Below the pieces are notes generated by a model. It was not told the origin of the DNA. It worked only from the letters and a program-made list of their open reading frames with translations, and ran no database searches. Position numbers and translations under genes: made by a program. From a virus: DNA of 34,976 bases. Position 1 is the first letter of the stretch, and each line of letters starts with the position of its first letter. Positions 11,513 to 22,951 of this stretch are shown here, piece after piece. Location: positions 1 to 34,976 of IMG/VR virus record IMGVR_UViG_3300046028_006089, one strand, 5' to 3'.

Positions 11513-11965
11513 ATGAAGCTCATTAATACTACCTCATATTGCTCTGATAAACTAAAAGAAATTATTAAATGGTGTCTCCCTCAAGGATTGCACCTTAAAG
11601 ATATTAGAAAAATAGATTTTGGTAATACTAAATTAGGTTGGCATGGTAGGGCTTGGTATAGTGGTCGTGTGCATATTGGAGTTCCAGCTTATTCTAAGTA
11701 TGTTAAACCATATATTAGTGGAGGCGAGAGGGGATATTTACCTCTTAAAACATATAATTGGGAAGAGTCTTTGGTTGATATTATAGCCCATGAAGTAAGA
11801 CACCTATGGCAATATAAAAAGAATAAATTTTATCATGGTATTAAAAAGATAAGAAAATACAACATGGGAACTAAAGCTAAATTAAGTGAAGTAGATGCTA
11901 CATTATATGCTATAAGGAAAGTAAGAGAGTATAGAAAGAGTAATATTAAATTTCAATTGACATAA
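11513..11965 (+). CDS. HExxH metalloprotease-like protein
   Basis: 150 aa. HEVRH at residues 93-97 supplies two zinc-binding His and the catalytic Glu; SEVDATLYA around Glu126 is the likely third ligand, as in gluzincin-type small zinc peptidases. No signal peptide, so cytoplasmic. Substrate unknown: phage versions may cut host or virion proteins, or may be degenerate domains bound to other roles. Leaderless unit, and the last gene before the repeat-rich region. Confidence 0.6.
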   Translation: MKLINTTSYCSDKLKEIIKWCLPQGLHLKDIRKIDFGNTKLGWHGRAWYSGRVHIGVPAYSKYVKPYISGGERGYLPLKTYNWEESLVDIIAHEVRHLWQYKKNKFYHGIKKIRKYNMGTKAKLSEVDATLYAIRKVREYRKSNIKFQLT

Positions 11966-12037
11966 GTTGTTGATTATTATATAGTTAGGGCGGCGGGCTC
12001 CCCGCGCGCGCAAGTCGTTGATAATCAAGGTGTTACG
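11962..12037 (+). repeat. composite palindrome repeat, copy a
   Basis: Left palindrome (degenerate) 11962-11987, GC-rich hairpin core 11988-12010 (GCGGGCTCCCCGC can pair with itself), right palindrome 12011-12037 beginning CAAGTCGTTGATAATCAAG. First copy of a repeat found only between 11.96 and 22.95 kb. Confidence 0.8.
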
Positions 12038-12109
12038 TATGATAGTATTTATTTTTAACAGGATAGGCAACCCGCTGGCTAGCAGTATCTTATGAGATGA
12101 AAAAAGTTC

Positions 12110-12137
12110 TTGTCACAAGTTAAAAGTATGGTATGAT
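12110..12137 (+). promoter_or_regulatory. leaderless promoter for DUF932 gene
   Basis: TTGTCA 12110-12115, 16-nt spacer, TATGAT 12132-12137, 6 nt to ATG 12144. Confidence 0.75.
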
Positions 12138-12143
12138 TATTTT

Positions 12144-13001
12144 ATGGCAAGACAAACCAAACCCGCTCAAAGTGTATACGATTTCGATGTACACCAAGAG
12201 CCACTCCTCACAACTGACGGCAAGAGGACAGGATACTTCGGCATGGTGCGCCGTGACACCGCCGAACCCATTACACTCGGAGTTTGCACCGAGCAGTATG
12301 GTGTGGTGAAAAATGCAGACCTCATCGAGATGGTGGAAACCAACCTCGCCAATCATGACAAACTCTCGAATTTTACCTCGAAGAAGTTCGTCGTGCGTGA
12401 CGGCGCTCGTTTCTACGCTTCCTACGACTTCACCGATTTCAAAACGGAATTGAAGCCCGTGGGCAAGCGAGCCAAGGGTGACATTCTTGGGTTGCGGCTG
12501 GTCGTTAACAACAGTTATGACCGCTCAACTCGTGTTTCGTTGTCTCTCGGCTTCCTTCGTCTCATCTGCGAGAACGGTATGACCTCGCTTACCAAGGAGT
12601 TCAGCATGACGAAGCGCCACACGCTTGCTGTCAATCTCGACTTCGTTGGTGATGCATTGGCTCATGCTTGTGACAGCGTAGAATCTTCGGCGCAAGTTTT
12701 CAATAAACTGGCGCAGAAGGCTCTCACTAACGAACAGGGCTTGAACCTGCTCACCAAGCTGGAAGAGAAAGACATTATCTCCGGCAAGGTGCGTGAGGGG
12801 ATCGAGGCTGTTTGGCGCAATCCCGCTTATGAGGAGGATACGGATCGCAATCTGTATAACCTTTATAATGCGGCAACTCAGTTCCTGACTCGCAATGTCT
12901 CGCAAGAGCGCTACGAGTACAGCGAGCGTGTCAACCGTGACCTGCTCAAAGTCTTCAGCGGCAAGACCCGTGACGAAGACCTCTTGAAACTGGTCGCCTA
13001 A
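12144..13001 (+). CDS. DUF932-family phage/plasmid protein
   Basis: 285 aa. The order QPLLTTDG-like N-terminus, VVKNADLIEMVE, ARFYASYDF, LGLRLVVNNSYDRSTRVSLSLGF and LRLICENGM is typical of DUF932 proteins, which are common on plasmids, phages and integrative elements, with no settled function (links to replication or anti-restriction have been suggested). It is plainly richer in G and C and in GC-ending codons than the AT-rich genes to its left, a sign of transfer. Single leaderless unit between repeat copies a and b, with its own terminator. Confidence 0.85.
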   Translation: MARQTKPAQSVYDFDVHQEPLLTTDGKRTGYFGMVRRDTAEPITLGVCTEQYGVVKNADLIEMVETNLANHDKLSNFTSKKFVVRDGARFYASYDFTDFKTELKPVGKRAKGDILGLRLVVNNSYDRSTRVSLSLGFLRLICENGMTSLTKEFSMTKRHTLAVNLDFVGDALAHACDSVESSAQVFNKLAQKALTNEQGLNLLTKLEEKDIISGKVREGIEAVWRNPAYEEDTDRNLYNLYNAATQFLTRNVSQERYEYSERVNRDLLKVFSGKTRDEDLLKLVA

Positions 13002-13025
13002 ACTAAAACCAAAACCTTAACCGAG

Positions 13026-13052
13026 GCGGGGGTAAATCCCCCGCTTCTTTTT
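13026..13052 (+). terminator. intrinsic terminator after DUF932 gene
   Basis: GCGGGGG (13026-13032) and CCCCCGC (13038-13044) with loop TAAAT, followed by TTCTTTTT. A textbook terminator 24 nt after the stop. Confidence 0.95.
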
Positions 13053-13070
13053 GTCTAAATTCGATGAGTT

Positions 13071-13145
13071 GTAAGTTGTTGACTATCAAGGATTTACGGT
13101 GCGCGGGACCCCGCCGTTGTAAGTCGTTGACTATCAAGCACTTAT
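13071..13145 (+). repeat. composite palindrome repeat, copy b
   Basis: Left palindrome 13071-13097, core 13098-13118 with CGGGACCCCG, right palindrome 13119-13145. The right palindrome ends 5 nt before the TTGACA of the next promoter. Confidence 0.9.
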
Positions 13146-13150
13146 AAACC

Positions 13151-13178
13151 TTGACATTTATAGAATTTATCTTATAGT
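13151..13178 (+). promoter_or_regulatory. leaderless promoter for gene at 13186
   Basis: TTGACA 13151-13156, 16-nt spacer, TATAGT 13173-13178, 7 nt to GTG 13186. Confidence 0.8.
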
Positions 13179-13185
13179 TAAGGGA

Positions 13186-13524
13186 GTGAAAGCAAAACAC
13201 AAAGTCTATTATAACTTACATAAACATTGTTTGAGTATTATGCTTAAAGGCAAAGTCCTCCAACATAGCTCAGAGTTCTTTTTGAAAGATGTTGAGTTTC
13301 GTGTGAGTCAAGCTGGCAGAAACCGAGTCTTAAAAGAAAAGCGTAAGAATGTCCACGCTTTTGTGTGTGGCACACCAGACGAAGGTTGGCCTATTCATGG
13401 AGAGCGGCAAGTAACCTATAATCCCTATAAGTATCATAGTTTTGTTTATGCTGACACCAAGCGTCCTGTATATAAAGCTAAATGGGCTGGCGTTATTGGT
13501 CGTGAAATTTTTGTCTTGAATTAA
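13186..13524 (+). CDS. hypothetical protein, 112 aa, GTG start
   Basis: Begins KAKHKVYYNLHKHCLSIMLK, a beta-rich basic protein with RVSQAGRNRVLKEKRKNVHAF (compare phage proteins of the same outline that I have seen, but cannot name). The promoter fixes GTG 13186 as start. Its final codons contain the TTGAAT -35 of the next gene. Confidence 0.65.
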   Translation: MKAKHKVYYNLHKHCLSIMLKGKVLQHSSEFFLKDVEFRVSQAGRNRVLKEKRKNVHAFVCGTPDEGWPIHGERQVTYNPYKYHSFVYADTKRPVYKAKWAGVIGREIFVLN

Positions 13525-13543
13525 TCTAAAAGTATACTATAAT
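13516..13543 (+). promoter_or_regulatory. leaderless promoter for gene at 13550
   Basis: TTGAAT 13516-13521, 16-nt spacer, TATAAT 13538-13543, 6 nt to ATG 13550. The -35 overlaps the last codons of the upstream gene. Confidence 0.7.
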
Positions 13544-13549
13544 TATCAT

Positions 13550-13705
13550 ATGAACATCACTAAAGTAAAGAAGCTGGCTGAAGGTGGCTATGCTATTTAC
13601 GCTACTGACCCTAAAACTAAAACCGAAACCCAAGTTGGTTATATTGGGGAAAACCTTGACCCTAAAAACTGGCTTCCAGCGGGAACTAAAATTGAAAATT
13701 CTTGA
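13550..13705 (+). CDS. small protein, 51 aa
   Basis: KKLAEGGYAIYATDPKTKTE followed by GYIGENLDPKNWLP: a compact beta domain with Thr/Lys-rich loop. Leaderless. Overlaps the next gene by 14 nt. Unrecognised. Confidence 0.58.
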   Translation: MNITKVKKLAEGGYAIYATDPKTKTETQVGYIGENLDPKNWLPAGTKIENS

Positions 13706-14051
13706 AGAATCTTTTACTTCTAAAGGATTCAAACTTCAGCAGGTAAAGCGTGATGGCGACATCGCTATCTACAAAAAACAACTCGATGACCCCGAATGTG
13801 AAAACTATCATTATGAAGTTATCGCAATCAAGCGTCACAATGGTTATGAGATCGCTGGCGTAAAGATGCCTCCCGCTGAAATGTATCCTAGCGATAGTCA
13901 ATGGGGCGATTGGGCTTTCACTTGCACTAGCATCGAAGATGCCAACAAGCGTTTCGGTGAATTGCAGGAGAAACTAACAAACTATAATGCAACATCAATT
14001 CTGCCTAGCGGTGAAAAGCGTGGTCGTGGTCGTCCTCGCAAAATCGCTTGA
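13692..14051 (+). CDS. protein with C-terminal AT-hook, 119 aa
   Basis: TTG 13692 is the likely start, inside the end of the previous gene. Most of the protein is an alpha/beta domain (EVIAIKRHNGYEIAGVKMPP, WGDWAFTCTSIEDANKRF). It ends in KRGRGRPRKIA (residues 109-119), a canonical AT-hook that binds the minor groove of AT-rich DNA. A DNA-binding regulatory or architectural role is inferred. Its TGA lies in the next -35 box. Start is the least certain point. Confidence 0.6.
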   Translation: MKILEESFTSKGFKLQQVKRDGDIAIYKKQLDDPECENYHYEVIAIKRHNGYEIAGVKMPPAEMYPSDSQWGDWAFTCTSIEDANKRFGELQEKLTNYNATSILPSGEKRGRGRPRKIA

Positions 14052-14075
14052 CAGAATAAAAAAACATATTACAAT
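14048..14075 (+). promoter_or_regulatory. leaderless promoter for gene at 14083
   Basis: TTGACA 14048-14053 (contains the upstream TGA), 16-nt spacer, TACAAT 14070-14075, 7 nt to ATG 14083. Confidence 0.75.
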
Positions 14076-14082
14076 CACAACT

Positions 14083-14313
14083 ATGACCTATCATTGTGCA
14101 GTAAGTGGAGAGGCGATCCCTCCAGAGAGAGTTGAGGCTCTGCAAGTCCTCGGCGTTCCAGAGAGTCAATGGACTAAAAAAGAGTATAGTCAAGTAAAGA
14201 AACTTCGTGCCGTGTATGCTGGTGATGATGGCAGTAATGACATCGTTATCTGCGACAAGGTTGATGGTGGCTCACTATTTGATAATGAAATCGCCGTGGA
14301 GGTAGAAGAATGA
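14083..14313 (+). CDS. small DksA/TraR-finger-like protein, 76 aa
   Basis: YHCAVSGEAIPPERVEAL resembles the C-x(2)-x-G-E-x-I-P-x-x-R part of the DksA/TraR zinc finger, but only one Cys of the usual four is present there, so zinc binding is doubtful. The rest (ESQWTKKEYSQVKKLRAVYA) is charged. Possible remnant or relative of an RNA-polymerase-binding protein. Leaderless. Coupled to the next gene. Confidence 0.45.
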   Translation: MTYHCAVSGEAIPPERVEALQVLGVPESQWTKKEYSQVKKLRAVYAGDDGSNDIVICDKVDGGSLFDNEIAVEVEE

Positions 14314-14480
14314 ATTTAAGATATATCGTTCTGCGTGATGGTATTCGTGTTAGCGAGGATATGCACTCTGACCTAAAGGAAGCTGAAGCAGAAGCTGAAT
14401 TTTGGCGGAAGGTTATTCGTGCATGGCCTGATGGCACGAAGGTCGTAATCAAAAAGATTGGCTCGGAAAAGAAAGCCTAA
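14310..14480 (+). CDS. small basic protein, 56 aa
   Basis: ATGA overlap at 14310, with GGAGGTAGAAGA just upstream. A beta-alpha-beta pattern (LRYIVLRDGIRVSED, a Glu/Ala helix, KVVIKKIG). Unknown function. Confidence 0.58.
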   Translation: MNLRYIVLRDGIRVSEDMHSDLKEAEAEAEFWRKVIRAWPDGTKVVIKKIGSEKKA

Positions 14481-14516
14481 AGATCGGAGGCTGACACTAG
14501 CTACGGGCTAGGTGAT

Positions 14517-14610
14517 GCGAGGGTCGTCTAACTGGTTAAGACCCCACACTTATAATGTGGTCGCTCTAGATTTGGGCAAAATGCAGGTTCGAATCCTGCC
14601 CCTCGTACCA
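14517..14610 (+). tRNA. tRNA with anticodon TAT (Ile, AUA) and long variable arm
   Basis: GCGAGGG/CCCTCGT acceptor stem, GTCT/AGAC D-stem, CCACA/TGTGG anticodon stem with loop CTTATAA (anticodon TAT at 14551-14553), variable region of about 22 nt containing GCTC/GGGC, GCAGG/CCTGC T-stem with loop TTCGAAT, discriminator A and encoded CCA. The anticodon reads AUA (Ile). Ile tRNAs normally have short variable loops; the long arm is typical of Leu, Ser and Tyr tRNAs. Charging is therefore uncertain. Confidence 0.85.
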
Positions 14611-14622
14611 ATCTTATTATAT

Positions 14623-14649
14623 GTAAATCGTTGATATTCAACCAATTAT
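14623..14649 (+). repeat. palindrome repeat, copy c (single)
   Basis: One palindrome (GTAAATCGTTGATATTCAACC...) without core or partner, ending 5 nt before TTGACT of the next promoter. Confidence 0.8.
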
Positions 14650-14654
14650 TTTTG

Positions 14655-14682
14655 TTGACTATTTATCAAACTATTGTATATT
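14655..14682 (+). promoter_or_regulatory. leaderless promoter for gene at 14689
   Basis: TTGACT 14655-14660, 16-nt spacer, TATATT 14677-14682, 6 nt to ATG 14689. Confidence 0.8.
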
Positions 14683-14688
14683 AAACCT

Positions 14689-14916
14689 ATGACAAACAAA
14701 ACCTCAAACTGGGAAGCTCCTAAGTGGACTCCTTACTATACCAAGATGATCTTTGGTGAGCGTAGGGCTTACATTATGGATGCTCGAATCCGTGAAGCAA
14801 CCAAACAGAACACATACAGCTTGCAGGATCTTTACAGGATCAGCAAGGCTTTTAATGTGGCCTTCAAGCTCGTTCCAGAGCCTAGTGAATTTCCAACGGA
14901 GATTTCAGCGGCTTAA
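14689..14916 (+). CDS. hypothetical protein, 75 aa
   Basis: Start set by the promoter. Aromatic N-terminus (NWEAPKWTPYYTKMIFG) and helix-turn-helix-like middle (ARIREATKQN, SLQDLYRISKAFNVAF), which might be a DNA-binding fold; evidence is weak. Followed 6 nt later by the tRNA-Met gene. Confidence 0.58.
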   Translation: MTNKTSNWEAPKWTPYYTKMIFGERRAYIMDARIREATKQNTYSLQDLYRISKAFNVAFKLVPEPSEFPTEISAA

Positions 14917-14922
14917 TTTATT

Positions 14923-14995
14923 GGGCTTGTAGCTCAACGGTTAGAGCAGAGGACTCATAATCCTTTGGTTATAGGTTCGAATCCTATCAGGCCCA
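14923..14995 (+). tRNA. tRNA-Met (CAT)
   Basis: GGGCTTG/CAGGCCC acceptor (one G-T pair), GCTC/GAGC D-stem, GAGGA/TCCTT anticodon stem with loop CTCATAA, ATAGG/CCTAT T-stem. CCA not encoded. It may be elongator Met or an Ile tRNA matured by lysidine; sequence alone does not decide, though a TAT tRNA nearby makes the latter less needed. Confidence 0.9.
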
Positions 14996-15003
14996 AGACT
15001 TTC

Positions 15004-15076
15004 GGATCGTTAGCTCAATTGGTAGAGCAGTTGGCTTTTAACCAATAGGTTGTAGGTTCGAGTCCTACACGATCCA
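15004..15076 (+). tRNA. tRNA-Lys (TTT)
   Basis: GGATCGT/ACGATCC acceptor, GCTC/GAGC D-stem, GTTGG/CCAAT anticodon stem with loop CTTTTAA, GTAGG/CCTAC T-stem with TTCGAGT. CCA not encoded. Lies 8 nt after tRNA-Met. Confidence 0.95.
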
Positions 15077-15095
15077 AAAAAGTTTAAGAAAACCC

Positions 15096-15123
15096 TTGAC
15101 AAAAAAGCAAAACCTGTTAAACT
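15096..15123 (+). promoter_or_regulatory. leaderless promoter for gene at 15131
   Basis: TTGACA 15096-15101, 16-nt spacer, TAAACT 15118-15123, 7 nt to ATG 15131. Confidence 0.75.
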
Positions 15124-15130
15124 AAAAACA

Positions 15131-15310
15131 ATGAAACAAACTTATGACATTATTAAGGATAGCCACCTTGTCGCACCCACTTATCATTGGATGCTTAATG
15201 GCTATGCAAAACATACAGAATTGACAGAAGAAGATATTAAGGCATACTTCAAAGCAAGAGCAGAAAACAAAAGGAGAATCAGAAAAAATGAGACAAATCA
15301 AATTATATAA
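15131..15310 (+). CDS. small basic protein, 59 aa
   Basis: Helical with basic C-terminus (KARAENKRRIRKNETN). Overlaps the next gene by 23 nt. AGGAGAATC in its end serves as that gene's ribosome site. Not recognised. Confidence 0.6.
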   Translation: MKQTYDIIKDSHLVAPTYHWMLNGYAKHTELTEEDIKAYFKARAENKRRIRKNETNQII

Positions 15311-15683
15311 ACAAAACCTCGGCGCTCATTGGGTTATTGGAATTAAAGGTTCCAAGGATAAAATCGAGCAGTTCCATAATCGTGTCTATAATTGGGGTGG
15401 AACAAACGGCGAGCTTCAATGGATGGCAGATGACTTTGCTTATTTCTGGATTACCTTTGAGAAGTTGGAGCGAGTGATGTTTAAGTATGTTATGAATGGT
15501 ATGACAGATAAGTTTGGTTTGAAATTCCGCAATCGTAAAGGTGGAATGAAAGAAGTTGTTATGAATCGTGTGCGGAATACAATCAGCAAGATTCCTGTTG
15601 AGAATTTTGTTCGCACCGCACAGATCGAACCAACTTATACGCTTGGAGAAGTTTCGGCTGAAAAGTTAGATACTGACAGCTAA
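15288..15683 (+). CDS. hypothetical protein, member 1 of a three-gene family
   Basis: 131 aa. IKGSKDKIEQFHNRVYNWGGTNGEL, then FAYFWITFEKLERVM aligns by eye with the leftward genes 19813-20178 and 22241-22660 (shared core: x-F-H/Y-N-x-x-Y-N-x-x-x-T-N-x-x-L, and A-F/Y-x-F). The C-terminal VSAEKLDT also resembles the ITAEKPSD end of the third. Family unknown. Small alpha/beta domain with conserved Asn, Tyr, Gly and Thr. Confidence 0.65.
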   Translation: MRQIKLYKQNLGAHWVIGIKGSKDKIEQFHNRVYNWGGTNGELQWMADDFAYFWITFEKLERVMFKYVMNGMTDKFGLKFRNRKGGMKEVVMNRVRNTISKIPVENFVRTAQIEPTYTLGEVSAEKLDTDS

Positions 15684-15690
15684 AACAATC

Positions 15691-15766
15691 CGCCTAGTAG
15701 CCCAATGGCAGAGGCAAACGACTTAAAATCGTTATAGTGTCAGTTCGAGTCTGACCTAGGCGACCA
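15691..15766 (+). tRNA. tRNA-Leu (TAA), short variable loop
   Basis: CGCCTAG/CTAGGCG acceptor, anticodon stem AACGA/TCGTT with loop CTTAAAA (anticodon TAA), 5-nt variable loop ATAGT, GTCAG/CTGAC T-stem with TTCGAGT, discriminator A and encoded CCA. The anticodon reads UUA (Leu), yet bacterial Leu tRNAs carry a long variable arm and this one does not. Confidence 0.88.
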
Positions 15767-15768
15767 TC

Positions 15769-15842
15769 GCTTTCATAGCTCAATTGGATAGAGCAACGGA
15801 TTTCTAATCCGTAGGTTGCAGGTTCGATCCCTGCTGAAAGCG
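15769..15842 (+). tRNA. tRNA-Arg (TCT)
   Basis: GCTTTCA/TGAAAGC acceptor, GCTC/GAGC D-stem, ACGGA/TCCGT anticodon stem with loop TTTCTAA, GCAGG/CCTGC T-stem. CCA not encoded. Reads AGA, a common codon in AT-rich phages. Confidence 0.93.
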
Positions 15843-15884
15843 AGAATTTTTCCCAAAAGATTTTTTCTTATGTAAAGTTTCTAT

Positions 15885-15998
15885 GTGAGATGGTTTGAAA
15901 GAAATTTTTGGTGGATTTTTCTTGTTATGATTTGTGGGAGTATATCGTGGGGAGTATTGATAGAGCTTTCGAAAATTATAATTACACATCTAAAATAA
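15885..15998 (+). CDS. possible membrane peptide, 37 aa
   Basis: GTG 15885 is 6 nt after a TAAAGT box (15873-15878), but no -35 is visible. RWFERNFWWIFLVMICGSIS is a basic N-terminus plus a transmembrane helix. An ATG at 15927 is an alternative, shorter start. Confidence 0.33.
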   Translation: MRWFERNFWWIFLVMICGSISWGVLIELSKIIITHLK

Positions 15999-16033
15999 CT
16001 TTTCCCAATAATTATCATAGCATAAATAAAATA

Positions 16034-16062
16034 TTGAAATAATCTACATGCTACTGTAAAAT
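16034..16062 (+). promoter_or_regulatory. leaderless promoter for gene at 16070
   Basis: TTGAAA 16034-16039, 17-nt spacer, TAAAAT 16057-16062, 7 nt to ATG 16070. Confidence 0.6.
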
Positions 16063-16069
16063 AGTATAT

Positions 16070-16231
16070 ATGAAGCCCGAGAATAGAATCAGCAAGATAT
16101 TAGAGAAAAGAGTTCTCAAAGACGAAGATCCTAAACTCATTGCTCAAATAGAAAAATATTTGGCAGAGTTGGAAGTTGTTTTCGTTAAGTGGGCTAAAGC
16201 GCATCCCAATTGGAAAGAATCAGAAGAATAA
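16070..16231 (+). CDS. small helical protein, 53 aa
   Basis: Charged helices (RISKILEKRVLKDEDPKL, then YLAELEVVFVKWAKAH). Leaderless. Unrecognised. Confidence 0.58.
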   Translation: MKPENRISKILEKRVLKDEDPKLIAQIEKYLAELEVVFVKWAKAHPNWKESEE

Positions 16232-16240
16232 TTTAACTTT

Positions 16241-16316
16241 TGTAAGCCTTTGATTATCAAGTAGTTACATCGGCGGGGACTCTCGCCGCGTAAGTCGTTG
16301 ATAGTCAACGAGATAT
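16241..16316 (+). repeat. composite palindrome repeat, copy d
   Basis: Left palindrome 16241-16268, core with CGGCG...CGCCG hairpin 16269-16289, right palindrome 16290-16316 (GTAAGTCGTTGATAGTCAAC...). It ends 5 nt before the next -35. Confidence 0.9.
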
Positions 16317-16321
16317 TTTTC

Positions 16322-16349
16322 TTGCAGTAAAACGAAGTTATGGTATGAT
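16322..16349 (+). promoter_or_regulatory. leaderless promoter for gene at 16356
   Basis: TTGCAG 16322-16327, 16-nt spacer, TATGAT 16344-16349, 6 nt to ATG 16356. Spacer end TATGG and -10 TATGAT match the DUF932 promoter, pointing to shared origin. Confidence 0.75.
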
Positions 16350-16355
16350 TATCTT

Positions 16356-16622: not shown

Positions 16623-16646
16623 CAACAGAGAGATACTTATAGAAAG

Positions 16647-16674
16647 GGCGAGGAGTAAAATCCTCGCCTTTTTT
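16647..16674 (+). terminator. intrinsic terminator
   Basis: GGCGAGGA (16647-16654) and TCCTCGCC (16661-16668) with loop GTAAAA, followed by T6. Confidence 0.95.
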
Positions 16675-16676
16675 AT

Positions 16677-17021: not shown

Positions 17022-17105
17022 ATCTAAATTCTAAATTAGATTACACAAAATAGCAAATAATAATTGCTAAATAGCTAAATACTTAATATAATAATACTAC
17101 ATATT

Positions 17106-18128: not shown

Positions 18129-18191
18129 GTCTCAACAACTTAGGCAAGCGGGGCCCTTACGGTTGTAAGTCATTGATACTCAACGAGATTT
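18125..18191 (+). repeat. composite palindrome repeat, copy f
   Basis: Left half reduced to TAAGTCTCAACAACTTA around 18125-18142, core with GGGGCCC 18145-18164, right palindrome 18165-18191 ending GAGATTT. The right palindrome lies 15 nt (5 + 10) before the next -35. Confidence 0.8.
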
Positions 18192-18206
18192 AACTGCAAA
18201 AAAAAC

Positions 18207-18234
18207 TTGTCACAAGAAAAAAAACTGATAAAGT
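18207..18234 (+). promoter_or_regulatory. leaderless promoter for GP88-like gene
   Basis: TTGTCA 18207-18212, 16-nt spacer, TAAAGT 18229-18234, 6 nt to ATG 18241. The TTGTCACAAG opening is shared with the DUF932 promoter. Confidence 0.75.
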
Positions 18235-18240
18235 AATTTT

Positions 18241-18876
18241 ATGTTCAAAAACAAAAAGCAAGCCGAAGCTATTGTCGGCACACTATCTAAACCCTCGAAG
18301 ATGCCAGGTTATGCTTATTCAACGCCAGCGAAGCGTTGCATTATCGGGCAAAAAATGCGTCAGGTTGCGGGAAGCATTTGTGCTTTCTGCTATGCTCTTA
18401 AAGGGCGTTATGTTTTCCCCAATGTTCAAGCTGCGATGGAAAAGCGTTTTGCTTCTCTTACTCACGATCTTTGGGTGGATGCGATGACTTACCTTATTGG
18501 TAAAGCAAACAACCCTCACTTCCGTTGGCACGATTCGGGAGATTTGCAAGGTATTTGGCATCTCGAAAAGATTGTCAAAGTTGCAAAGAATCTTCCGCAT
18601 ATTTCTTTTTGGTTGCCTACTCGTGAATACTCTTTCGTTTCAGAGTATATAGCCAAGGGCGGTGAAGTTCCTTTTAATCTTACCATCCGTCTCTCTGCTC
18701 TTATGATGAATGGCCCCGCACCGGTTGGGTTAGCAGAACGCCTTGGCCTTTGTGTTAGCGGTGCGAGCAACAAGGGAGAATTTAATTGCCCTTCATCGAA
18801 ACAAGGAAACAAGTGCGGTTCGTGCCGTGCATGCTGGCATAAGAATGAGTTTGCAATTAACTACAAAAAGCATTAA
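18241..18876 (+). CDS. phage GP88-like protein
   Basis: 211 aa. SICAFCYALKGRY (Cys47, Cys50), then RWHDSGD at 95-101, VAKNLPHISFWLPTRE and a C-terminal Cys cluster (CPSSKQGNKCGSCRACW) match the GP88-type phage domain found in mycobacteriophages and others. The Cys pattern suggests a metal- or iron-sulphur-binding protein. Function is not known. Some relatives look like radical-enzyme-type proteins, but that is uncertain. Single cassette with the following small gene between copies f and g. Confidence 0.72.
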   Translation: MFKNKKQAEAIVGTLSKPSKMPGYAYSTPAKRCIIGQKMRQVAGSICAFCYALKGRYVFPNVQAAMEKRFASLTHDLWVDAMTYLIGKANNPHFRWHDSGDLQGIWHLEKIVKVAKNLPHISFWLPTREYSFVSEYIAKGGEVPFNLTIRLSALMMNGPAPVGLAERLGLCVSGASNKGEFNCPSSKQGNKCGSCRACWHKNEFAINYKKH

Positions 18877-18877
18877 G

Positions 18878-19096
18878 ATGTCGTCTTATGCTTTTAACAA
18901 TTCTAACCTCGGCGATAATTCTAACATTAATCCTAAACAAACAAAAATGAACATCGAAAAACTATTAAACGAAAATCTTGAAACTTTTTATCCGTGGAGC
19001 GATAACGATAATCCTCCTCTAGATTCAAACAAAACTTTTTTGCAAAAAGAAAGAGAGATAGATGAATTTTTTGAGGGTTGGCGAGCGTCTATGTAA
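18878..19096 (+). CDS. hypothetical acidic protein, 72 aa
   Basis: Starts 1 nt after the GP88-like stop (ATG 18878; ATG 18947, reading MNIEKLLNE, is an alternative preceded by AAACAAAAA). Asn-rich N-terminus and acidic helical C-terminus (EREIDEFFEGWRAS). Unknown. Confidence 0.55.
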   Translation: MSSYAFNNSNLGDNSNINPKQTKMNIEKLLNENLETFYPWSDNDNPPLDSNKTFLQKEREIDEFFEGWRASM

Positions 19097-19108
19097 AACT
19101 TAATCTTC

Positions 19109-19183
19109 GTAAGTCTTTTGTAGTCAGGGACTTACGAGGGCGCCCTCCCCGCCGCCGTAAGTCGTTGATAGTTAACTACTTAC
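19109..19183 (+). repeat. composite palindrome repeat, copy g
   Basis: Left palindrome 19109-19135, core with GGGCGCCC 19136-19156, right palindrome 19157-19183. It sits between converging genes. The last codon and stop of the leftward gene at 19176 lie inside its right palindrome. Confidence 0.9.
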
Positions 19184-19292
19184 GCTTACGCTCCCAAAGC
19201 CAGAGGCCAAAGTTAATAAGGGTTTCTAATAGAGCTAGAGCAAGGAAAAAAATTCCAAGTCCAGCGATTGCGAGTATATATTTTTCAATCAT
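19176..19292 (-). CDS. single-pass membrane protein, 38 aa
   Basis: GGAGA 7 nt upstream of ATG 19292. One hydrophobic helix (YILAIAGLGIFFLALALLETL) and a basic end (WLWERKRK). Last gene of a leftward three-gene unit starting at 19793. Confidence 0.6.
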   Translation of the reverse strand: MIEKYILAIAGLGIFFLALALLETLINFGLWLWERKRK

Positions 19293-19294
19293 AA

Positions 19295-19567
19295 TTATTC
19301 TCCACAAATTTCTGGATCACCAGCCCAACCGAAGTCTTCCATCTGGTAGCACCCGCCACCATAGTCTTCGTCTGTGCCGTGACCTGCAGAAGCCATAGCA
19401 GAATCGAAGTCGCCATCCATCGATTCGTCCACATCCGAGAGGTTAGATTGAGAAGATGCGAGGATGCGCTCGTCATCACGCGTCATCTCGTTAAGGATGT
19501 CGCGCACATCTAACCGAGTCAGCATGTGCTGGTTCATCCACTCCTTGAGAGAGGCTTTGTAGTCCAT
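19295..19567 (-). CDS. acidic hypothetical protein, 90 aa
   Basis: Start ATG 19567, set by GGAGGT 9 nt upstream (longer versions of the frame lack one). Asp/Glu/Gly-rich, with DARIL-type helix first and a low-complexity acidic end (MASAGHGTDEDYGGG). G/C-rich codon use. Confidence 0.65.
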   Translation of the reverse strand: MDYKASLKEWMNQHMLTRLDVRDILNEMTRDDERILASSQSNLSDVDESMDGDFDSAMASAGHGTDEDYGGGCYQMEDFGWAGDPEICGE

Positions 19568-19568
19568 G

Positions 19569-19793
19569 TTATTTGACCTCCATTGCATTCTGACAGGTGA
19601 GGCGAAAAGGAACAGCCTTAGCGCCAAAGAAGTTGGTGACCTCGGTATCCCTCTCATCGTAAGAGGGAGCCATCTTGTCGAGCATCTCGTTGATGGCATC
19701 AGCGGAGTTGATGTAATCGAAGAATGCTTCCGCATCAGCAAAGGCTTCGGTGCAGTTAATCGAGGCTAGGTAGGATATGTCGTTTTGGTTCAT
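19569..19793 (-). CDS. acidic helical protein, 74 aa
   Basis: Leaderless start at 19793. Short helical domain (TEAFADAEAFFDYINSADAI) and C-terminal basic strand. G/C-rich codon use. Its stop lies 1 nt from the next start. Unknown function. Confidence 0.62.
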   Translation of the reverse strand: MNQNDISYLASINCTEAFADAEAFFDYINSADAINEMLDKMAPSYDERDTEVTNFFGAKAVPFRLTCQNAMEVK

Positions 19794-19799
19794 ATAGGT

Positions 19800-19827
19800 A
19801 ATGTATCACAGATTACGATTCTGTCAA
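19800..19827 (-). promoter_or_regulatory. leaderless promoter for leftward gene at 19793
   Basis: On the minus strand: TTGACA (19827-19822), 16-nt spacer, TACATT (19805-19800), 6 nt to ATG 19793. It lies in the end of the upstream gene. Confidence 0.75.
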
Positions 19828-20178
19828 AGATTTTCTGCAAGAATATTCCATTGAATGACAACGCCTTACAAAAGTTGCTGGTTTTATTTCTGAAATTATT
19901 TGATCTGCCAATGCTTCTGCGTGAGAGTTCCAATCACCTTGAGCAAAAGATGATTCGAGATTCGTGGCGAGTGCGAGAGATAAAGCCCTGCGAAACTTTG
20001 CTGGTTCGGCATAAAAGTAAAACGCTTTTCCGCTTCCACGATCTTGTAATTTATAATTGGTTCCGCCGAAATTGTAAATTGCATTATAGAATCTTTCAGC
20101 AGATGGGAAATCTGCTTCGATTAAATAGGCGAGGTTAGGGCCAAAAGGTTCCATAAAGATTTTTATTTTATTCTGCAT
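19813..20178 (-). CDS. hypothetical protein, member 2 of a three-gene family
   Basis: 121 aa. ADFPSAERFYNAIYNFGGTN, then LQDRGSGKAFYFYAEPAKF align with the genes at 15288 and 22241. Shares GKAFYFYA with the latter, so these two are the closest pair. Function unknown. Its own leaderless promoter lies 6 nt from repeat copy h. Confidence 0.65.
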   Translation of the reverse strand: MQNKIKIFMEPFGPNLAYLIEADFPSAERFYNAIYNFGGTNYKLQDRGSGKAFYFYAEPAKFRRALSLALATNLESSFAQGDWNSHAEALADQIISEIKPATFVRRCHSMEYSCRKSLTES

Positions 20179-20184
20179 AAAAAG

Positions 20185-20212
20185 AGAATAGCAAAAATTT
20201 TCTTTTTGTCAA
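20185..20212 (-). promoter_or_regulatory. leaderless promoter for leftward gene at 20178
   Basis: Minus strand: TTGACA (20212-20207), 16-nt spacer, TATTCT (20190-20185), 6 nt to ATG 20178. Confidence 0.75.
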
Positions 20213-20218
20213 GCTTAT

Positions 20219-20293
20219 GTAAGTCGTTGATAGTCAAGGACTTGCGCGGGGGGCTTCCCTTCGTCTGTAAGTCGTTGATGCTTAGAGACTTAC
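20219..20293 (+). repeat. composite palindrome repeat, copy h
   Basis: Left palindrome 20219-20245, core 20246-20266 with GGGGGCTTCCC, right palindrome 20267-20293. The left one lies 6 nt from the -35 of the leftward gene at 20178. The stop of the gene at 20290 touches the right edge. Confidence 0.9.
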
Positions 20294-20427
20294 AATAGGT
20301 CTCGGAGATTCAAGCAACTCGCAGAAACATAGTAGAAAAATCTTTCACGCAAAAAGTTTTTCTTTTCGCCGTGAGAAACTGCGAGACGAAAAGTTTTTTT
20401 ATTTATTTGGAAAAGAATCTTTTTCAT
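20290..20427 (-). CDS. small basic protein, 45 aa
   Basis: Start ATG 20427, preceded by GGAG (10 nt). Basic (KKILFQINKKTFRLAVSHG, then KNFLRERFFYY). A longer in-frame version would overlap the upstream gene. Unknown. Confidence 0.5.
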   Translation of the reverse strand: MKKILFQINKKTFRLAVSHGEKKNFLRERFFYYVSASCLNLRDLL

Positions 20428-20431
20428 TTTT

Positions 20432-20722
20432 TTAGACTCCTTCTGCTTTGGCGATGTCTCTGCCAATTTCAACCGAGAGGTTGAGTTGATCCAAGAGATG
20501 TTTATTCGTTGCGAGTTTCGTGATGGTCACAGCGTTTTCGGTTGCCCAATCCCAGCGAGAGGAATATCCTGCACCTTGGCTAACGCTGATTTTGATGAAG
20601 GTGTTTTCGTCTTTCACATAAAGGATTTCTTCGGGCTGAAGCCAAGGAGTTTTCGTCCTGTCATTGGTCAAGAGGTAGAAGGTTCCGATTTCGGGTTGCA
20701 TTGTTTTGTTCTTATCTTTCAT
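20432..20722 (-). CDS. hypothetical protein, 96 aa
   Basis: Beta-rich core (PEIGTFYLLTNDRTKTPWL, EEILYVKDENTFIKISVS) with a helical C-terminus. Leaderless from 20722. The same general layout as the protein at 20767 (ligand-strand-type beta domains). Not recognised. Confidence 0.62.
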   Translation of the reverse strand: MKDKNKTMQPEIGTFYLLTNDRTKTPWLQPEEILYVKDENTFIKISVSQGAGYSSRWDWATENAVTITKLATNKHLLDQLNLSVEIGRDIAKAEGV

Positions 20723-20728
20723 ACTTTT

Positions 20729-20756
20729 ATCCTATCAGATTTTTTGATTTTGTCAA
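20729..20756 (-). promoter_or_regulatory. leaderless promoter for leftward gene at 20722
   Basis: Minus strand: TTGACA (20756-20751), 16-nt spacer, TAGGAT (20734-20729), 6 nt to ATG 20722. Confidence 0.75.
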
Positions 20757-20766
20757 CTTTTATTTC

Positions 20767-20961
20767 TTATTGAGCATCAACGGCTTGAATACCCTTGCGA
20801 AGATAAATGGTAGTCCATTTACCCTTATCAGGGCCATCCATAATTTCAGCGGTTGCGGTTCTTGTTTTCCAACCAATCGTAGAAGGGAATATTTTGACTA
20901 GCATTCCTTCGTAGATGTAGAGGTCTTTGTTTTCGTATAGTTCGGGATTTATTGTTATCAT
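20767..20961 (-). CDS. small beta-domain protein, 64 aa
   Basis: Start ATG 20961, with AAAGGAT as ribosome site. IYEGMLVKIFPSTIGWKTRTA, then GPDKGKWTTIYLRKGIQAV suggest a small SH3-like or KOW-like barrel. Function unknown. Coupled to the upstream coiled-coil gene (4 nt apart). Confidence 0.6.
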   Translation of the reverse strand: MITINPELYENKDLYIYEGMLVKIFPSTIGWKTRTATAEIMDGPDKGKWTTIYLRKGIQAVDAQ

Positions 20962-20965
20962 TTTT

Positions 20966-21112
20966 TTATCCTTTCTTAAGAGTTTCGATTTCGTCCATTT
21001 TGACGATGATTTTTTCCATCCGTTTTGCGGAATCTTGATAGCCTTTGGAAATTTCCTCAAGGCGTTTGATTGTTTCATTGATGTCGAATTTGATTTTGAT
21101 TTTTGTTTTCAT
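20966..21112 (-). CDS. small coiled-coil protein, 48 aa (paralogue of 22700)
   Basis: ATG 21112. FDINETIKRLEEISKGYQDS, then a Lys/Glu helix. Aligns with the 54-aa protein at 22700 (x-x-ETI-R-L-x-x-I-x-x-GY-x-x-SA-x-R). Promoter TTGCGA, 16 nt, TAGATT, but here about 20 nt of purine-rich sequence (AGAAAGAAAGAAG) were inserted before the ATG, turning a leaderless gene into one with a leader. Confidence 0.6.
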   Translation of the reverse strand: MKTKIKIKFDINETIKRLEEISKGYQDSAKRMEKIIVKMDEIETLKKG

Positions 21113-21138
21113 TTTTTTTCTTCTTTCTTTCTACCTTT

Positions 21139-21166
21139 AATCTATCACATTTTTCATTTTTCGCAA
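21139..21166 (-). promoter_or_regulatory. promoter for leftward gene at 21112
   Basis: Minus strand: TTGCGA (21166-21161), 16-nt spacer, TAGATT (21144-21139). The GTGATAGATTAA stretch is shared with the promoter of the paralogue at 22864, but the start codon is about 26 nt downstream here, not 6. Confidence 0.6.
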
Positions 21167-21181
21167 GAAAAATCTTCATTT

Positions 21182-21254
21182 AAATTTCATTGACCATCAA
21201 CGAGTTACAACGCAAGGGAGGCCCTCCGTTCAAGTAGTTGATAGTCAACGCTTT
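21182..21254 (+). repeat. composite palindrome repeat, copy i
   Basis: Left palindrome 21182-21208, core with GGGAGGCCCTCC 21209-21230, right half 21231-21254. The left palindrome lies 15 nt from the -35 of the leftward gene at 21112. Confidence 0.85.
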
Positions 21255-21283
21255 CGGTTTTCTGCGTTTAAGACTCAAAGTTG

Positions 21284-21306
21284 AAAAGATCAGACATTGA
21301 TCTTTT
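21284..21306 (+). terminator. possible two-way terminator
   Basis: AAAAGATCA/TGATCTTTT, a 9-bp stem with loop GACAT, in the gap between repeat copies i and j (21255-21340, which holds no gene). T run only inside the stem, so weak. Confidence 0.35.
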
Positions 21307-21340
21307 GCATTCCATCAGGTTTTGTTCCAAGATCAGCATT

Positions 21341-21417
21341 CGCAAGTGATTGATTATTAGGCACTTATAAAGACAGCCCCCCCGCCCCACGTAAGTCGTT
21401 GATACTGAACAACTTAC
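21341..21417 (+). repeat. composite palindrome repeat, copy j
   Basis: Left half 21341-21368 (degenerate), core rich in C (AGCCCCCCCGCCCC), right palindrome 21391-21417. It follows the stop side of the leftward gene at 21429. Confidence 0.85.
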
Positions 21418-21428
21418 GGAGGCTGCTT

Positions 21429-21824
21429 TTAGAATGGTGTGATTTTTATTTTTAGAGATTCTTCTAAAGTTTTTTTGGAGGGTTTAAAGAAGATGACTTT
21501 GTCGTTTATTTTTTCGACTGAAACTTTTTCTGGCAGAGATGCAAAGTCTCCTTCGTCATCTGTTGCAACGATCAGAGCTTTTCCAGCGAAAGGTTGCGAA
21601 GCGATGCCAAACTTAAAGTATGCTTGGTTCTCGCTGTCTTTTAGCAAGCCTTCGTCATCTAGAATCATATCAATTCCATTTGCAAGGCCTGTCATAGTTA
21701 TCACATCGCATCCCAAGAGTGCGTAGATAGTTTGGATTTTAGTGTCTACCATCTTAACCTCTATGATGGTTTCGGTGAATGGATCGATGAGGATCGCTCG
21801 TTTGATTGGATTATTGTTTGTCAT
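21429..21824 (-). CDS. DUF3846-like protein
   Basis: 131 aa. ILIDPFTETIIEVKM, then IYALLGCDVITM, GIDMILDDEGLLKD and a late TDDEGDF follow the DUF3846 pattern (I-D-x-x-x-x-T-I-x-E-V, LLGCD, DDEGLL). Common in phages and conjugative elements, function unknown. Leaderless. Its stop is 12 nt from repeat copy j. Confidence 0.68.
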   Translation of the reverse strand: MTNNNPIKRAILIDPFTETIIEVKMVDTKIQTIYALLGCDVITMTGLANGIDMILDDEGLLKDSENQAYFKFGIASQPFAGKALIVATDDEGDFASLPEKVSVEKINDKVIFFKPSKKTLEESLKIKITPF

Positions 21825-21830
21825 ATCTTT

Positions 21831-21858
21831 AGCTTATCATACCTTTCGTTGTTGTCAA
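21831..21858 (-). promoter_or_regulatory. leaderless promoter for DUF3846-like gene
   Basis: Minus strand: TTGACA (21858-21853), 16-nt spacer, TAAGCT (21836-21831), 6 nt to ATG 21824. No palindrome adjoins this one. Confidence 0.7.
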
Positions 21859-21861
21859 GTC

Positions 21862-22239
21862 TTACAAGCGGTAAAACTTGTGATTCTTAATTACTGCGAC
21901 AGTCTGCTCTCCTCTTGACCACTTGGGCGACACTTGGAAGGTGTGGTAGTGGTTCGCACCCTGCACAACATCGGGCATTCGTTTCTCTGCTACAAGTTTA
22001 GCGAGACGGATGGCGTTGGGTGCTTGAGGGTTCTTTAGAAGCTCCTGCTTCTTCGCCTCACTCACTCCACCATTCCAGAAGCTGAATTGCTTTGGTGCAA
22101 GGCAGACTTGTGTGGGCGTTTGCTTTCGCTCGATGGCTCGTGTCTGAATGACAGACGCAACACCCGCCATTCCCTCAAAGCCTTCGCCTCGTGCTTCGCC
22201 AAGGATGGTCAAAGCTATAACAAGAATCTCTGCGGTCAT
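21862..22239 (-). CDS. SleB-type cell-wall hydrolase
   Basis: 125 aa starting ATG 22239, with GGGGAGAG upstream. LTILGEARGEGFEGMAGVASVI has the Glu15-x-x-x-Glu19 pattern of the SleB/Hydrolase_2 family (spore-cortex lytic and phage endolysin domains), and PNAIRLAKLVAEKRMPDV, NHYHTF, then SPKWSRG fit the rest of the fold. No signal peptide is evident. A hydrophobic start (MTAEILVIALTIL) could serve as a weak anchor. Likely cuts peptidoglycan glycan strands. Ends just before the next promoter. Confidence 0.78.
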   Translation of the reverse strand: MTAEILVIALTILGEARGEGFEGMAGVASVIQTRAIERKQTPTQVCLAPKQFSFWNGGVSEAKKQELLKNPQAPNAIRLAKLVAEKRMPDVVQGANHYHTFQVSPKWSRGEQTVAVIKNHKFYRL

Positions 22240-22240
22240 T

Positions 22241-22660
22241 TTAGTCTCTCCCCGCACTGATCGCACCGCAGTAGTCAGAGGGTTTCTCTGCGGTGATGCT
22301 TCCAAGGTTAAAGACATCGGTGCTGATGCTGGTGCGAAGGAATCGCCCATCTTTAATCGCATCGAACTTGTCTTGGGCTTTCTGCCTTGCAAGGGCGAGC
22401 AACCCACCCTTCATCCCTTTAGCTTTGATCTTATTGCATAGAGCATAGAGAGCCACTTTAGTCATCGCTTCTAGCACGGCTTCTGGCTGTGCGTAGAAGT
22501 AGAACGCCTTGCCGTTGCCCATATCGTGCAACTCGCCATTGGTTGCACTATGGTTATACATAGCGTTGTGGAAGTTTTCGATCTGGCTCTTGTTGCCTTC
22601 CAAGAGGAAAGCGGTAGTGTTGCCGAAGGTTTGTTTGGTGATGGTGATTTGGTTTTTCAT
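22241..22660 (-). CDS. hypothetical protein, member 3 of a three-gene family
   Basis: 139 aa from ATG 22660 (an upstream in-frame start at 22696 would lie in the promoter). EGNKSQIENFHNAMYNHSAT, then GKAFYFYAQPEA and ITAEKPSD match the genes at 15288 and 19813. Followed at once by the SleB-like gene, whose ribosome site is in its last codons. Promoter TTGACG with an imperfect -10 (CAATAT) and 7 nt to ATG. Confidence 0.65.
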   Translation of the reverse strand: MKNQITITKQTFGNTTAFLLEGNKSQIENFHNAMYNHSATNGELHDMGNGKAFYFYAQPEAVLEAMTKVALYALCNKIKAKGMKGGLLALARQKAQDKFDAIKDGRFLRTSISTDVFNLGSITAEKPSDYCGAISAGRD

Positions 22661-22699
22661 ATAGCTTATATTGCTTTCTGGTTTGATTTTCGTCAAGGG

Positions 22700-22864
22700 T
22701 TATTTGGTTTCGCCCATATACTTTTTGTGGGCTTCATCCTTCTTCGCTTGGGCTTCTGCCACGATGTTGTCGAGGCGTTGGGCAGAGGCTTTGTAGCCTT
22801 CTGCGATAGCGTTGAGTCTGCGGATGGTTTCGTCTAGGTTGAACTTGTTTGCTTTAACTTTCAT
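22700..22864 (-). CDS. small coiled-coil protein, 54 aa (paralogue of 20966)
   Basis: FNLDETIRRLNAIAEGYKAS, then a long charged helix ending in GETK. Paralogue of the 48-aa protein at 20966. Leaderless. No function known. Confidence 0.62.
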   Translation of the reverse strand: MKVKANKFNLDETIRRLNAIAEGYKASAQRLDNIVAEAQAKKDEAHKKYMGETK

Positions 22865-22870
22865 ACTCTT

Positions 22871-22898
22871 AATCTATCACACTATTACGATTTGTCAA
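22871..22898 (-). promoter_or_regulatory. leaderless promoter for leftward gene at 22864
   Basis: Minus strand: TTGACA (22898-22893), 16-nt spacer, TAGATT (22876-22871), 6 nt to ATG 22864. Confidence 0.8.
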
Positions 22899-22924
22899 GC
22901 GATGCTAGGCTTTTTATTGCATTT

Positions 22925-22951
22925 AAATTTCATTGATTATCAACGACTTAC
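22925..22951 (+). repeat. palindrome repeat, copy k (single)
   Basis: AAATTTCATTGATTATCAAC... is the reverse complement of the usual promoter-side palindrome. It lies 26 nt (5 + two helical turns) from the -35 of the leftward gene at 22864. Last copy in the window. Confidence 0.85.

Follow-up and report, generated by a model that had tools for sequence, protein, structure and literature searches.

Promoter early stem-loops (PeSLs) are reportedly mobile regulatory cassettes of T4-type phages (Arbiol 2010; Comeau 2014). Integron attC arrays and the related clusters of attC lacking integron-integrases (CALINs) part their cassettes by paired symmetric halves around a variable centre (PMC9892861); in Acinetobacter plasmids accessory genes lie between short two-fold symmetric dif/pdif sites at which modules are shuffled (PMC6449649; PMC13141974), the pdif site being a single 28-bp XerC/XerD site with 11-bp arms and a 6-bp centre (PMC6449649); and in the Campylobacter group II phage CP21 four repeat regions of 1-2.9 kb, built of 72-86-bp units, split the genome into modules of 28-55 kb whose order or orientation varies among relatives (PMC4546147). 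Here we describe an array of eleven repeats, elements a to k, at 11,962-22,951 of the IMG/VR virus record IMGVR_UViG_3300046028_006089, a stretch of 34,976 bases that we call the window and that has no such element in the rest of its length. Nine of the eleven are composite, with two 27-bp dyads of the pattern TAAGNNNTTGA-NNN-TCAANNNCTTA set 48 or 49 bp apart from start to start and flanking a GC-rich core; c and k are single dyads. We consider it probable, taking the explanation as a whole, that these elements delimit a cassette array in an uncultivated clade of tailed phages, that cassettes are exchanged in or near the core, and that a dimeric protein would bind the dyads. Repeat-fenced swapping of this kind seems to be a route of gene exchange between phages that had so far escaped notice.

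After ten loci of repeatedly sampled viruses had been removed beforehand by a hand-made list, comparison of related viruses gave 773 element-by-genome cases with homologues of both flanking sequences in another genome, and these homologues meet at one element in 597 cases and at two different elements in the other 176. The alignments show cassettes gained, lost and swapped between related viruses at the elements; locus L009, for example (L and G numbers are our handles for loci and genome records), differs from the window in having no ArdC cassette between e and f and a short extra cassette at h. The changeover was followed in 44 de-duplicated junction events with flanks at least 80% alike, each part of the element being assigned to the left or right parent that it resembles more, with ties omitted. 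The outer left arm goes with the left parent in 32 events and with the right in 5 (7 ties), and the inner left arm in 22 and 8; in the 33 events where the cores do not differ in length, the left half of the core sides with the left parent by 19 to 8 and the right half with the right parent by 21 to 9; the inner right arm follows the right parent by 21 to 6 and the outer right arm by 29 to 7 (8 ties). To judge by these likenesses, each dyad of a junction usually stays with the cassette on its own side, left or right, and the changeover falls in or near the core. We conclude that the elements are true boundaries between cassettes and that recombination maps to their cores, and the modular shuffling at repeats that an earlier note on this DNA had suspected is borne out where cassette content and order are compared among relatives, with breakpoints mapping to the element and around its core.

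Dyads and cores differ in what they follow. As the identity of the flanks of orthologous elements drops from above 95% to 70-80%, arm identity falls from 0.98 to 0.80 and core identity faster, from 0.98 to 0.68. Between elements of one genome the arms are scarcely more alike than random (0.71 vs 0.68), whereas the cores are (0.76 vs 0.49). Loci L029 and L136 share both flanks at about 96% and have nearly the same dyads, with cores that differ. Where a homologous cassette edge is found with cores differing in length by at least 2 (21 cases, several of which share an element), the outer arm is 0.92 identical, the inner arm 0.84 and the adjoining 8 nucleotides of the core 0.60, against 0.68, 0.75 and 0.41, respectively, in random pairs. 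Within a virus the dyads keep nearly the same spacing (modal share 0.92 vs 0.42 when dealt at random; in 59 of 76 loci every spacing is within 1 bp of the others). From one virus to another the spacing changes (41/42, 46, 48, 50, 52 and 53), and it is clustered on the terminase tree, with 7 changes against 15.1 after shuffling. The arms thus track the cassette or locus, and the length and sequence of the core track the virus; this split is the most unusual part of the finding and places a strong and unusual constraint on any mechanism.

Each dyad consists of 12-bp arms around a 3-bp centre, with TAA...TTGA-NNN-TCAA...TTA as the part conserved in the weight matrix, and the whole element, core of about 14-26 bp included, measures about 70-80 bp. 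Complementarity of the arms within dyads equals that of arms dealt at random per genome (0.704 vs 0.702 and 0.738 vs 0.739; n=562 elements), so that selection on the arms for a cruciform or hairpin is ruled out and the absence of covariation argues for selection on a two-fold symmetric duplex site. The dyads therefore look like sites bound by protein as duplex DNA. The cores average 82% GC, compared with 40% for the loci, and in 9 of 95 loci core GC is only 48-62%, which makes a high GC content usual and not required. The two halves of the core are more self-complementary than shuffled ones (0.524 vs 0.382), and the 42-type core covaries while its arms hardly do; some cores occur in both orientations (L020), and that occurrence would give the same signal. 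The elements are intergenic: only 68 of the 1328 dyads are wholly contained in, and another 94 overlap, open reading frames (ORFs) of at least 100 amino acids, called with a simple longest-ORF script and counted without removal of repeat samples, in sequence that is 52.5% coding.

In the window the half-site GTAAGTCGTTGA has 25 matches with up to two mismatches, against 2.13 expected and with none of 100 shuffles reaching 25, and 23 of them lie inside 11,962-22,951. The 27-bp weight matrix finds 20 dyads at a score of at least 12, all of them in that interval, where 200 letter shuffles of the window average 0.06 dyads and hold 2 at most; the matrix was trained on 143 sequences with the window among them, so this count is partly circular. 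An independent control, made up of 504,360 bases that 80 relatives have downstream of the terminase, contains no dyad. In the window, the dyad at 19843 (score 14.2) falls within a predicted ORF and is likely to be a chance match. The eleven copies that the earlier note had counted, confined to 11.96-22.95 kb, were thus confirmed; its description of copies that usually have two palindromes stands for the nine composite elements, c and k being single and the second dyad of i weak. The features are as follows.

11962-12036, plus strand: element a, dyads 11962-11988 (weak) and 12010-12036 with a GC-rich core.
12037-13070, plus strand: cassette a-b, GC 0.49, with a DUF932 / TIGR03299-like gene at 12144-13001 and a terminator-like hairpin at 13023-13047.
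13071-13145, plus strand: element b, dyads from 13071 and 13119 flanking the core.
13146-14622, plus strand: cassette b-c, small ORFs and tRNA-Ile(TAT) at 14517-14610.
14623-14649, plus strand: element c, a lone dyad with no partner scoring 8 or more.
14650-16241, plus strand: cassette c-d, ORFs and tRNA-Met, -Lys, -Leu and -Arg.
16242-16316, plus strand: element d, dyads from 16242 and 16290 flanking the core, with a terminator-like match at 16295-16311.
16317-17174, unstranded: cassette d-e, ORF 16356-16622 (plus), ORF 16839-17021 (minus) and tRNA-Glu at 17105-17178.
17175-17249, plus strand: element e, dyads from 17175 and 17223, a junction of cassette gain or loss against L009, L102, L114 and L080.
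17250-18116, plus strand: cassette e-f, an ArdC-like gene (ArdcN and MPTase-PolyVal) at 17289-18128, the last codons of which enter element f.
18117-18191, plus strand: element f, dyads from 18117 and 18165; e and f bracket the ArdC cassette missing in L009.
18192-19108, plus strand: cassette f-g, a GP88 family gene at 18241-18876 and further sequence.
19109-19183, plus strand: element g, dyads from 19109 and 19157 flanking the core.
19184-20218, minus strand: cassette g-h, leftward ORFs, of which 19813-20178 has no Pfam match.
20219-20293, plus strand: element h, dyads from 20219 and 20267, the place of the extra small cassette of L009 (elements L009:3462 and L009:3621).
20294-21181, minus strand: cassette h-i, ORFs running leftward.
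21182-21256, minus strand: element i, dyad 21182-21208 and a weak partner at 21230-21256 (score 11.8).
21257-21341, unstranded: mini-cassette i-j, 85 bp, below the size of the listed ORFs (50 amino acids).
21342-21417, plus strand: element j, dyads from 21342 and 21391 flanking the core, spacing 49.
21418-22924, minus strand: cassette j-k, DUF3846, a cell-wall hydrolase (PF07486, SleB-type) and ORF 22241-22696 without Pfam match.
22925-22951, minus strand: element k, a lone dyad at the right end of the array.
25485-31244, plus strand: conserved block outside the array and near it, with PhoH, zinc-ribbon-like, sigma70_r2, an unknown protein of 364 amino acids, ERCC4 nuclease and terminase.

The cassettes of the window, 85-1592 bp long, hold genes for DUF932, ArdC-like, GP88, SleB-type hydrolase and DUF3846 proteins and six of the window's seven tRNA genes; an Rfam scan of the window returned tRNAs only, and tRNA-Glu shares 4 bases with the first dyad of element e. 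The terminase block is followed by a portal gene from 31266. Cassette GC is 0.36-0.49, against 0.30-0.31 on either side of the array; the change of GC that had been noted at the boundaries is thus real as a step of the whole island and does not recur at each boundary.

The repeat is not confined to the window: the composite pattern occurs in at least 119 IMG/VR stretches. In 143 viral sequences, which amount to 1.28 Mb and include the window, the matrix detects 1328 dyads, compared with 1 after shuffling, a contrast that is circular in selection and training, the sequences having been fetched by the pattern and the matrix trained on them; 138 of them have at least one dyad, 99 at least three elements and 66 at least five. 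The exact 19-mer GTAAGTCGTTGATAGTCAA is found in 34 IMG/VR stretches and, in 257 Gb of bacterial and archaeal genomes, in 7 stretches only, which disposes of a host genomic repeat of the REP (repetitive extragenic palindrome) or MITE (miniature inverted-repeat transposable element) type and, with it, of the earlier note's concern that a common host element might be spread at random. Two of these seven, the contigs L044 and L047 of metagenome-assembled genomes, contain several paired dyads in an array-like arrangement and are probably viral. In seven of the 34 IMG/VR loci (L016, L018, L024, L034, L038, L040 and L042) there is one partial dyad each, identical over 27 letters in six of the seven, and these loci look unrelated to the arrays. 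A BLAST search of the consensus element against 50,697 phage records gave no convincing match (9 matches at E 2-6). Five plasmid records were matched by the element, three of them over a long stretch (R7K, an uncultured-bacterium plasmid and BPP5P1), and in R7K and BPP5P1 the matched dyad lies upstream of mobilisation genes. The dyad of R7K (IncW; L158:6002-6028) agrees at 23 of 24 arm positions and that of Bordetella BPP5P1 (L159:5002-5028) at 24 of 24, both beside a GC-rich hairpin.

The terminase of the window has homologues in all but four of the 40 records tested (36 of 40), the exceptions being G011, G013, G028 and the 140-kb G038. Identities of these homologues range from 39 to 100%, and those to cultured phages, among the 25 matches listed out of 72, do not exceed 30.1%; since the carriers share a terminase to which cultured relatives are distant, they look like one uncultivated clade. 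The window virus is also represented by the 84.6-kb record G001, whose 20 dyads all fall within a single stretch of 11 kb. In each genome listed (island places being given for 5 of 16 genomes of one set and for six long genomes of another, with G010 and G016 belonging to both sets) the dyads are gathered in a single island of about 4-17 kb, G018 being counted across contig ends. Stray dyads occur at G022:104400, G018:69111 and G034:80367; the latter two are weak (12.7 and 12.0, respectively) and within ORFs, and were set aside as operators of a gene for the binding protein. Around arrays of at least four dyads, with repeat samples kept and related viruses non-independent, PhoH (31/31), zinc-ribbon-like (27/27) and sigma-like (26/26) genes lie outside, and DUF932 (36/40) and GP88-like (30/33) genes inside. 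All eleven gene families common to the six long genomes (6/6) belong to the PhoH-terminase-portal-capsid block. The island further marks the clade's store of accessory genes, with members of the ArdC, DUF932 and GP88 families. Contigs G053 (209), G056 (38764), G059 (L314:372-1726) and G052 (L311:16256-17366) start or end in or beside an array, and such contig ends suggest assembly breaks caused by the repeats or by mixed cassette content in the population.

Several observations weigh against an exchange system built on the elements. The order of cassettes is mostly conserved, as the 597 of 773 cases that meet at the same element illustrate, and the gradient across the junctions is near that of crossovers evenly spread over the element, being somewhat sharper at the core with small numbers. 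Alignment ends are 2.2-fold enriched within 20 bp of a dyad centre (19.0% vs 8.5% expected; n=3506, non-independent, repeat samples kept), and neighbours are kept across an element in 0.47 of 576 comparisons as against 0.71 of 936 within a cassette, a modest difference in comparisons that include related, non-independent viruses. Genes of 88-94% DNA identity over 312-744 bp are common to viruses whose terminases are 62-64% identical and whose core types differ (L119 with L037 and L156, L020 with L084, and L082 with L156, where L082 lies in the record that also holds L136); these alignments mostly break off before they reach a dyad, by tens to hundreds of bases, and so show transfer without locating the cut point. 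Nor did an enzyme come to light: profile searches found the tyrosine recombinase PF00589 in 0 of 47 records (many of which are fragments) and the serine recombinase PF00239 and the Y1 transposase PF01797 in 0 of 48 each, and gene sharing among the six long genomes yielded only the terminase-side block and no candidate for a recombinase or dyad-binding protein. Pfam searches gave no integrase or transposase for 61 of the 90 listed ORFs of G001 (among 25 of 29 families listed) or for two sets from G018, covering 108 of its 161 listed ORFs, of 51 proteins (11 of 11 families) and 57 proteins (among 25 of 34 families listed); for PHROGs, searched with the same 61 G001 proteins, 25 of 64 families are listed.

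A further point against such a system comes from an array-less relative. In G064, a contig of 38.7 kb with a terminase 71% identical, the PhoH-to-terminase block is present with GP88 and DUF932 genes upstream, and no dyad was found in 38,000 bases scanned, even at a score of 9; six of the eleven shared block families are also present in this relative, the contig ending just after. The element is therefore not needed to carry these two cassette gene families, and the earlier note's reservation about relatives in which the repeats are absent applies in part, to this extent. Many AATAAT-rich repeats lie upstream of PhoH in the GP88/DUF932 stretch of G064 (L309, 19001-38000), as if another repeat family replaced the dyads there. 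Among 80 terminase relatives, at least two upstream dyads were found in 5 of 24 with at least 8 kb upstream and in 1 of 17 with 5-8 kb, counts that are lower bounds because the island may start at a distance of over 10 kb, as it does in G061, where it begins 16 kb upstream. A pattern search over the whole sequence of 15 longer relatives gave a match in 4 and none in 11, one of the latter being G052, in which the matrix finds three dyads near the contig end.

Since no recombinase was found, ordinary phage recombination is a serious rival, and we would credit it almost as readily as we would doubt it. On this view a DNA-binding protein of the phage or of its host would use the dyads as operators or architectural sites, and the repeats would do no more than supply homology; recombination of this kind at repeats has reportedly been proposed for the PeSLs of T4-type phages. 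The empty searches for PF00589, PF00239 and PF01797 fit it, as do the mapping of exchange to the cores, which are the most alike part of the elements within a genome, and the endonuclease VII-like and RuvB_C genes of the virus; the 24/24-arm dyad upstream of a mobilisation gene in the unrelated plasmid L159 likewise makes a use outside cassettes possible. This rival is weakened because genes move between viruses with different cores, the 88-94% identical genes being found across core types where little else is shared but dyads that, in unrelated elements, are about 70% alike; the point is a limited one, as the alignments there mostly end before the dyads and leave the breakpoints unplaced. Operators would, moreover, leave both the elements between convergent genes (47/264) and the virus-specific core unexplained. 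A different account has the core as a target-site duplication, such that a cassette ending in dyads inserts into a core, transposon-like, and duplicates it in the style of a CRISPR spacer. It would account at once for dyads being bound to cassettes, for cores being bound to genomes and for the constancy of core length within a virus (the 0.92 modal share). It is nonetheless quite unlikely in our estimation, given that PF01797 was found in 0 of 48 records, that no transposase is among the Pfam families listed for G001 and G018 (searches that did not include casposase and Cas1), and that the same pair of cassettes keeps its order with a differing core (L029/L136; L100/window).

The earlier note had also considered a dedicated transcription-boundary element, that is, an insulator or a terminator/promoter element between units. 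In favour of this, elements lie near start and stop codons (medians of 90 and 71 bp, respectively), and strand switches are enriched across them (76 of 263 neighbouring gene pairs vs 53 of 406 within cassettes, over all array loci), so the strand change seen at boundaries stands as an enrichment and does not define the elements; in the window a promoter-like match (11/12) covers part of element a, and element d contains a terminator-like one. As the main role it is not supported by the orientation of the genes, which around elements are tandem in 189 pairs, convergent in 47 and divergent in 28 (n=264, related viruses being non-independent), all four orientations occurring. The best terminator-like hairpin of the window (13023) comes before element b, and promoter-like sites, scored over the 130 bp just outside elements and not in their interiors, are found on 25% of 310 gene-start sides and on 2% of 364 gene-end sides; together with the gene orientations this led us to reject the element as a promoter alone. 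With the virus-specific cores also unexplained, we give transcriptional insulation little credence as the explanation, and a transcription boundary may be a second role of the elements. An integron-like array (CALIN), its attC sites worked by the integrase of a host integron, would account for the cassette logic, the array of accessory genes and the two symmetric sites around a variable GC-rich centre, and phages with attC clusters have been published (PMC9892861). This we hold to be very improbable indeed: the RYYYAAC...GTTRRRY motifs stand at the outer ends of only 1 of 608 elements (0 after letter shuffling) and the arms lack the covariation that a folded single-strand attC would be expected to show, on which two grounds attC sites were rejected; genes lie in both orientations, and PF00589 was found in 0 of 47 records. 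Xer dif sites were set aside as well, the best dyad identity to E. coli dif being 10 of 27.

Returning to cassette exchange in or near the core, a cassette would be one or a few genes (the median is 0.9 kb, with one element per cassette), often with a promoter-like site at the inner edge, with a 27-bp dyad at each end, and neighbouring cassettes would be joined via a short, usually GC-rich core typical of the virus. A protein dimer may bind each dyad as duplex DNA and hold two elements together, direct strand exchange or break repair in the core between the dyads and, by the same exchange, render cores uniform within a genome. Exchange could be due to a dedicated, unrecognised recombinase or to general phage recombination, for which endonuclease VII-like and RuvB_C proteins are present. 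G001 encodes a RuvB_C AAA protein (L163:14075-15010) and endonuclease VII-like, rIIB-like, UvdE nuclease and GyrB/HSP90-type ATPase proteins, a set that is partly T4-like beside a terminase without close cultured relative. A short PurA/PurZ-like adenylosuccinate synthetase (G001, L164:6085-7077) has adenylosuccinate synthases as its best NCBIfam matches, below cut-offs, and IMPDH/GMP-reductase-like and MazG-like genes lie elsewhere in G001; modified DNA in the window virus is only a possibility.

The boldest form of this mechanism, which we put forward tentatively and think on balance rather unlikely, is a dedicated cassette-exchange system in which an unrecognised recombinase, or a phage protein recruiting one, would read paired duplex dyads and exchange cassettes in the core, the length and sequence of the core serving as a virus-specific compatibility tag that is rewritten after transfer to match the recipient. 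Were this true, phages would have a system that functions as integrons do and dispenses with every known integrase. How single accessory genes pass between related phages is an open question, and here the cut points are visible; with such a two-part boundary, cassettes can be listed by pattern search, donors and recipients matched, and exchange assayed with one short DNA. A dedicated enzyme would offer a new tool for DNA recombination, and failing that the arrays still clearly illustrate how phages can maintain common cut points at which genes are exchanged. Literature searches by sequence and by idea, in the collection searched, found no description of the element; of three hits to one such search, one is a primer and the other two were set aside by title.

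Taken together, we argue for repeat-bounded cassette shuffling with a new boundary element, the machinery of which is possibly new as well, and this is best appreciated against the systems it resembles. Close to the dyad in sequence is oriT of the IncW (R7K/R388) type, where a near-identical dyad, described above for R7K and BPP5P1, precedes mobilisation genes; it is there in single copy and no cassettes are seen, unlike in the array, and the searched half-site letters are absent from PMC3264647, on IncW oriT. With CP21 the array shares the division into modules by repeats and differs in having one element of about 70-80 bp per short cassette. As in pdif modules, accessory genes are set between short sites of two-fold symmetry and shuffled; in place of one such site, however, the array has two 27-bp dyads, each with 12-bp arms and a 3-bp centre, separated by a core of about 14-26 bp. 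Like attC arrays and CALINs, the latter of which have no integrase gene, it parts its cassettes by paired symmetric halves around a variable centre, and unlike them it has attC core motifs in 1 of 608 elements, would be recognised as duplex rather than as a folded strand and holds genes in both orientations. PeSLs, in turn, are short repeated intergenic phage elements proposed to enable the shuffling of accessory genes between relatives (PMC4503421), and shuffling at the repeat is present here too (176 of 773 comparisons and 44 junctions); whereas a PeSL combines a promoter with a stem-loop terminator, the present element combines two dyads not selected as hairpins with a virus-specific core, and accepts genes in any orientation.

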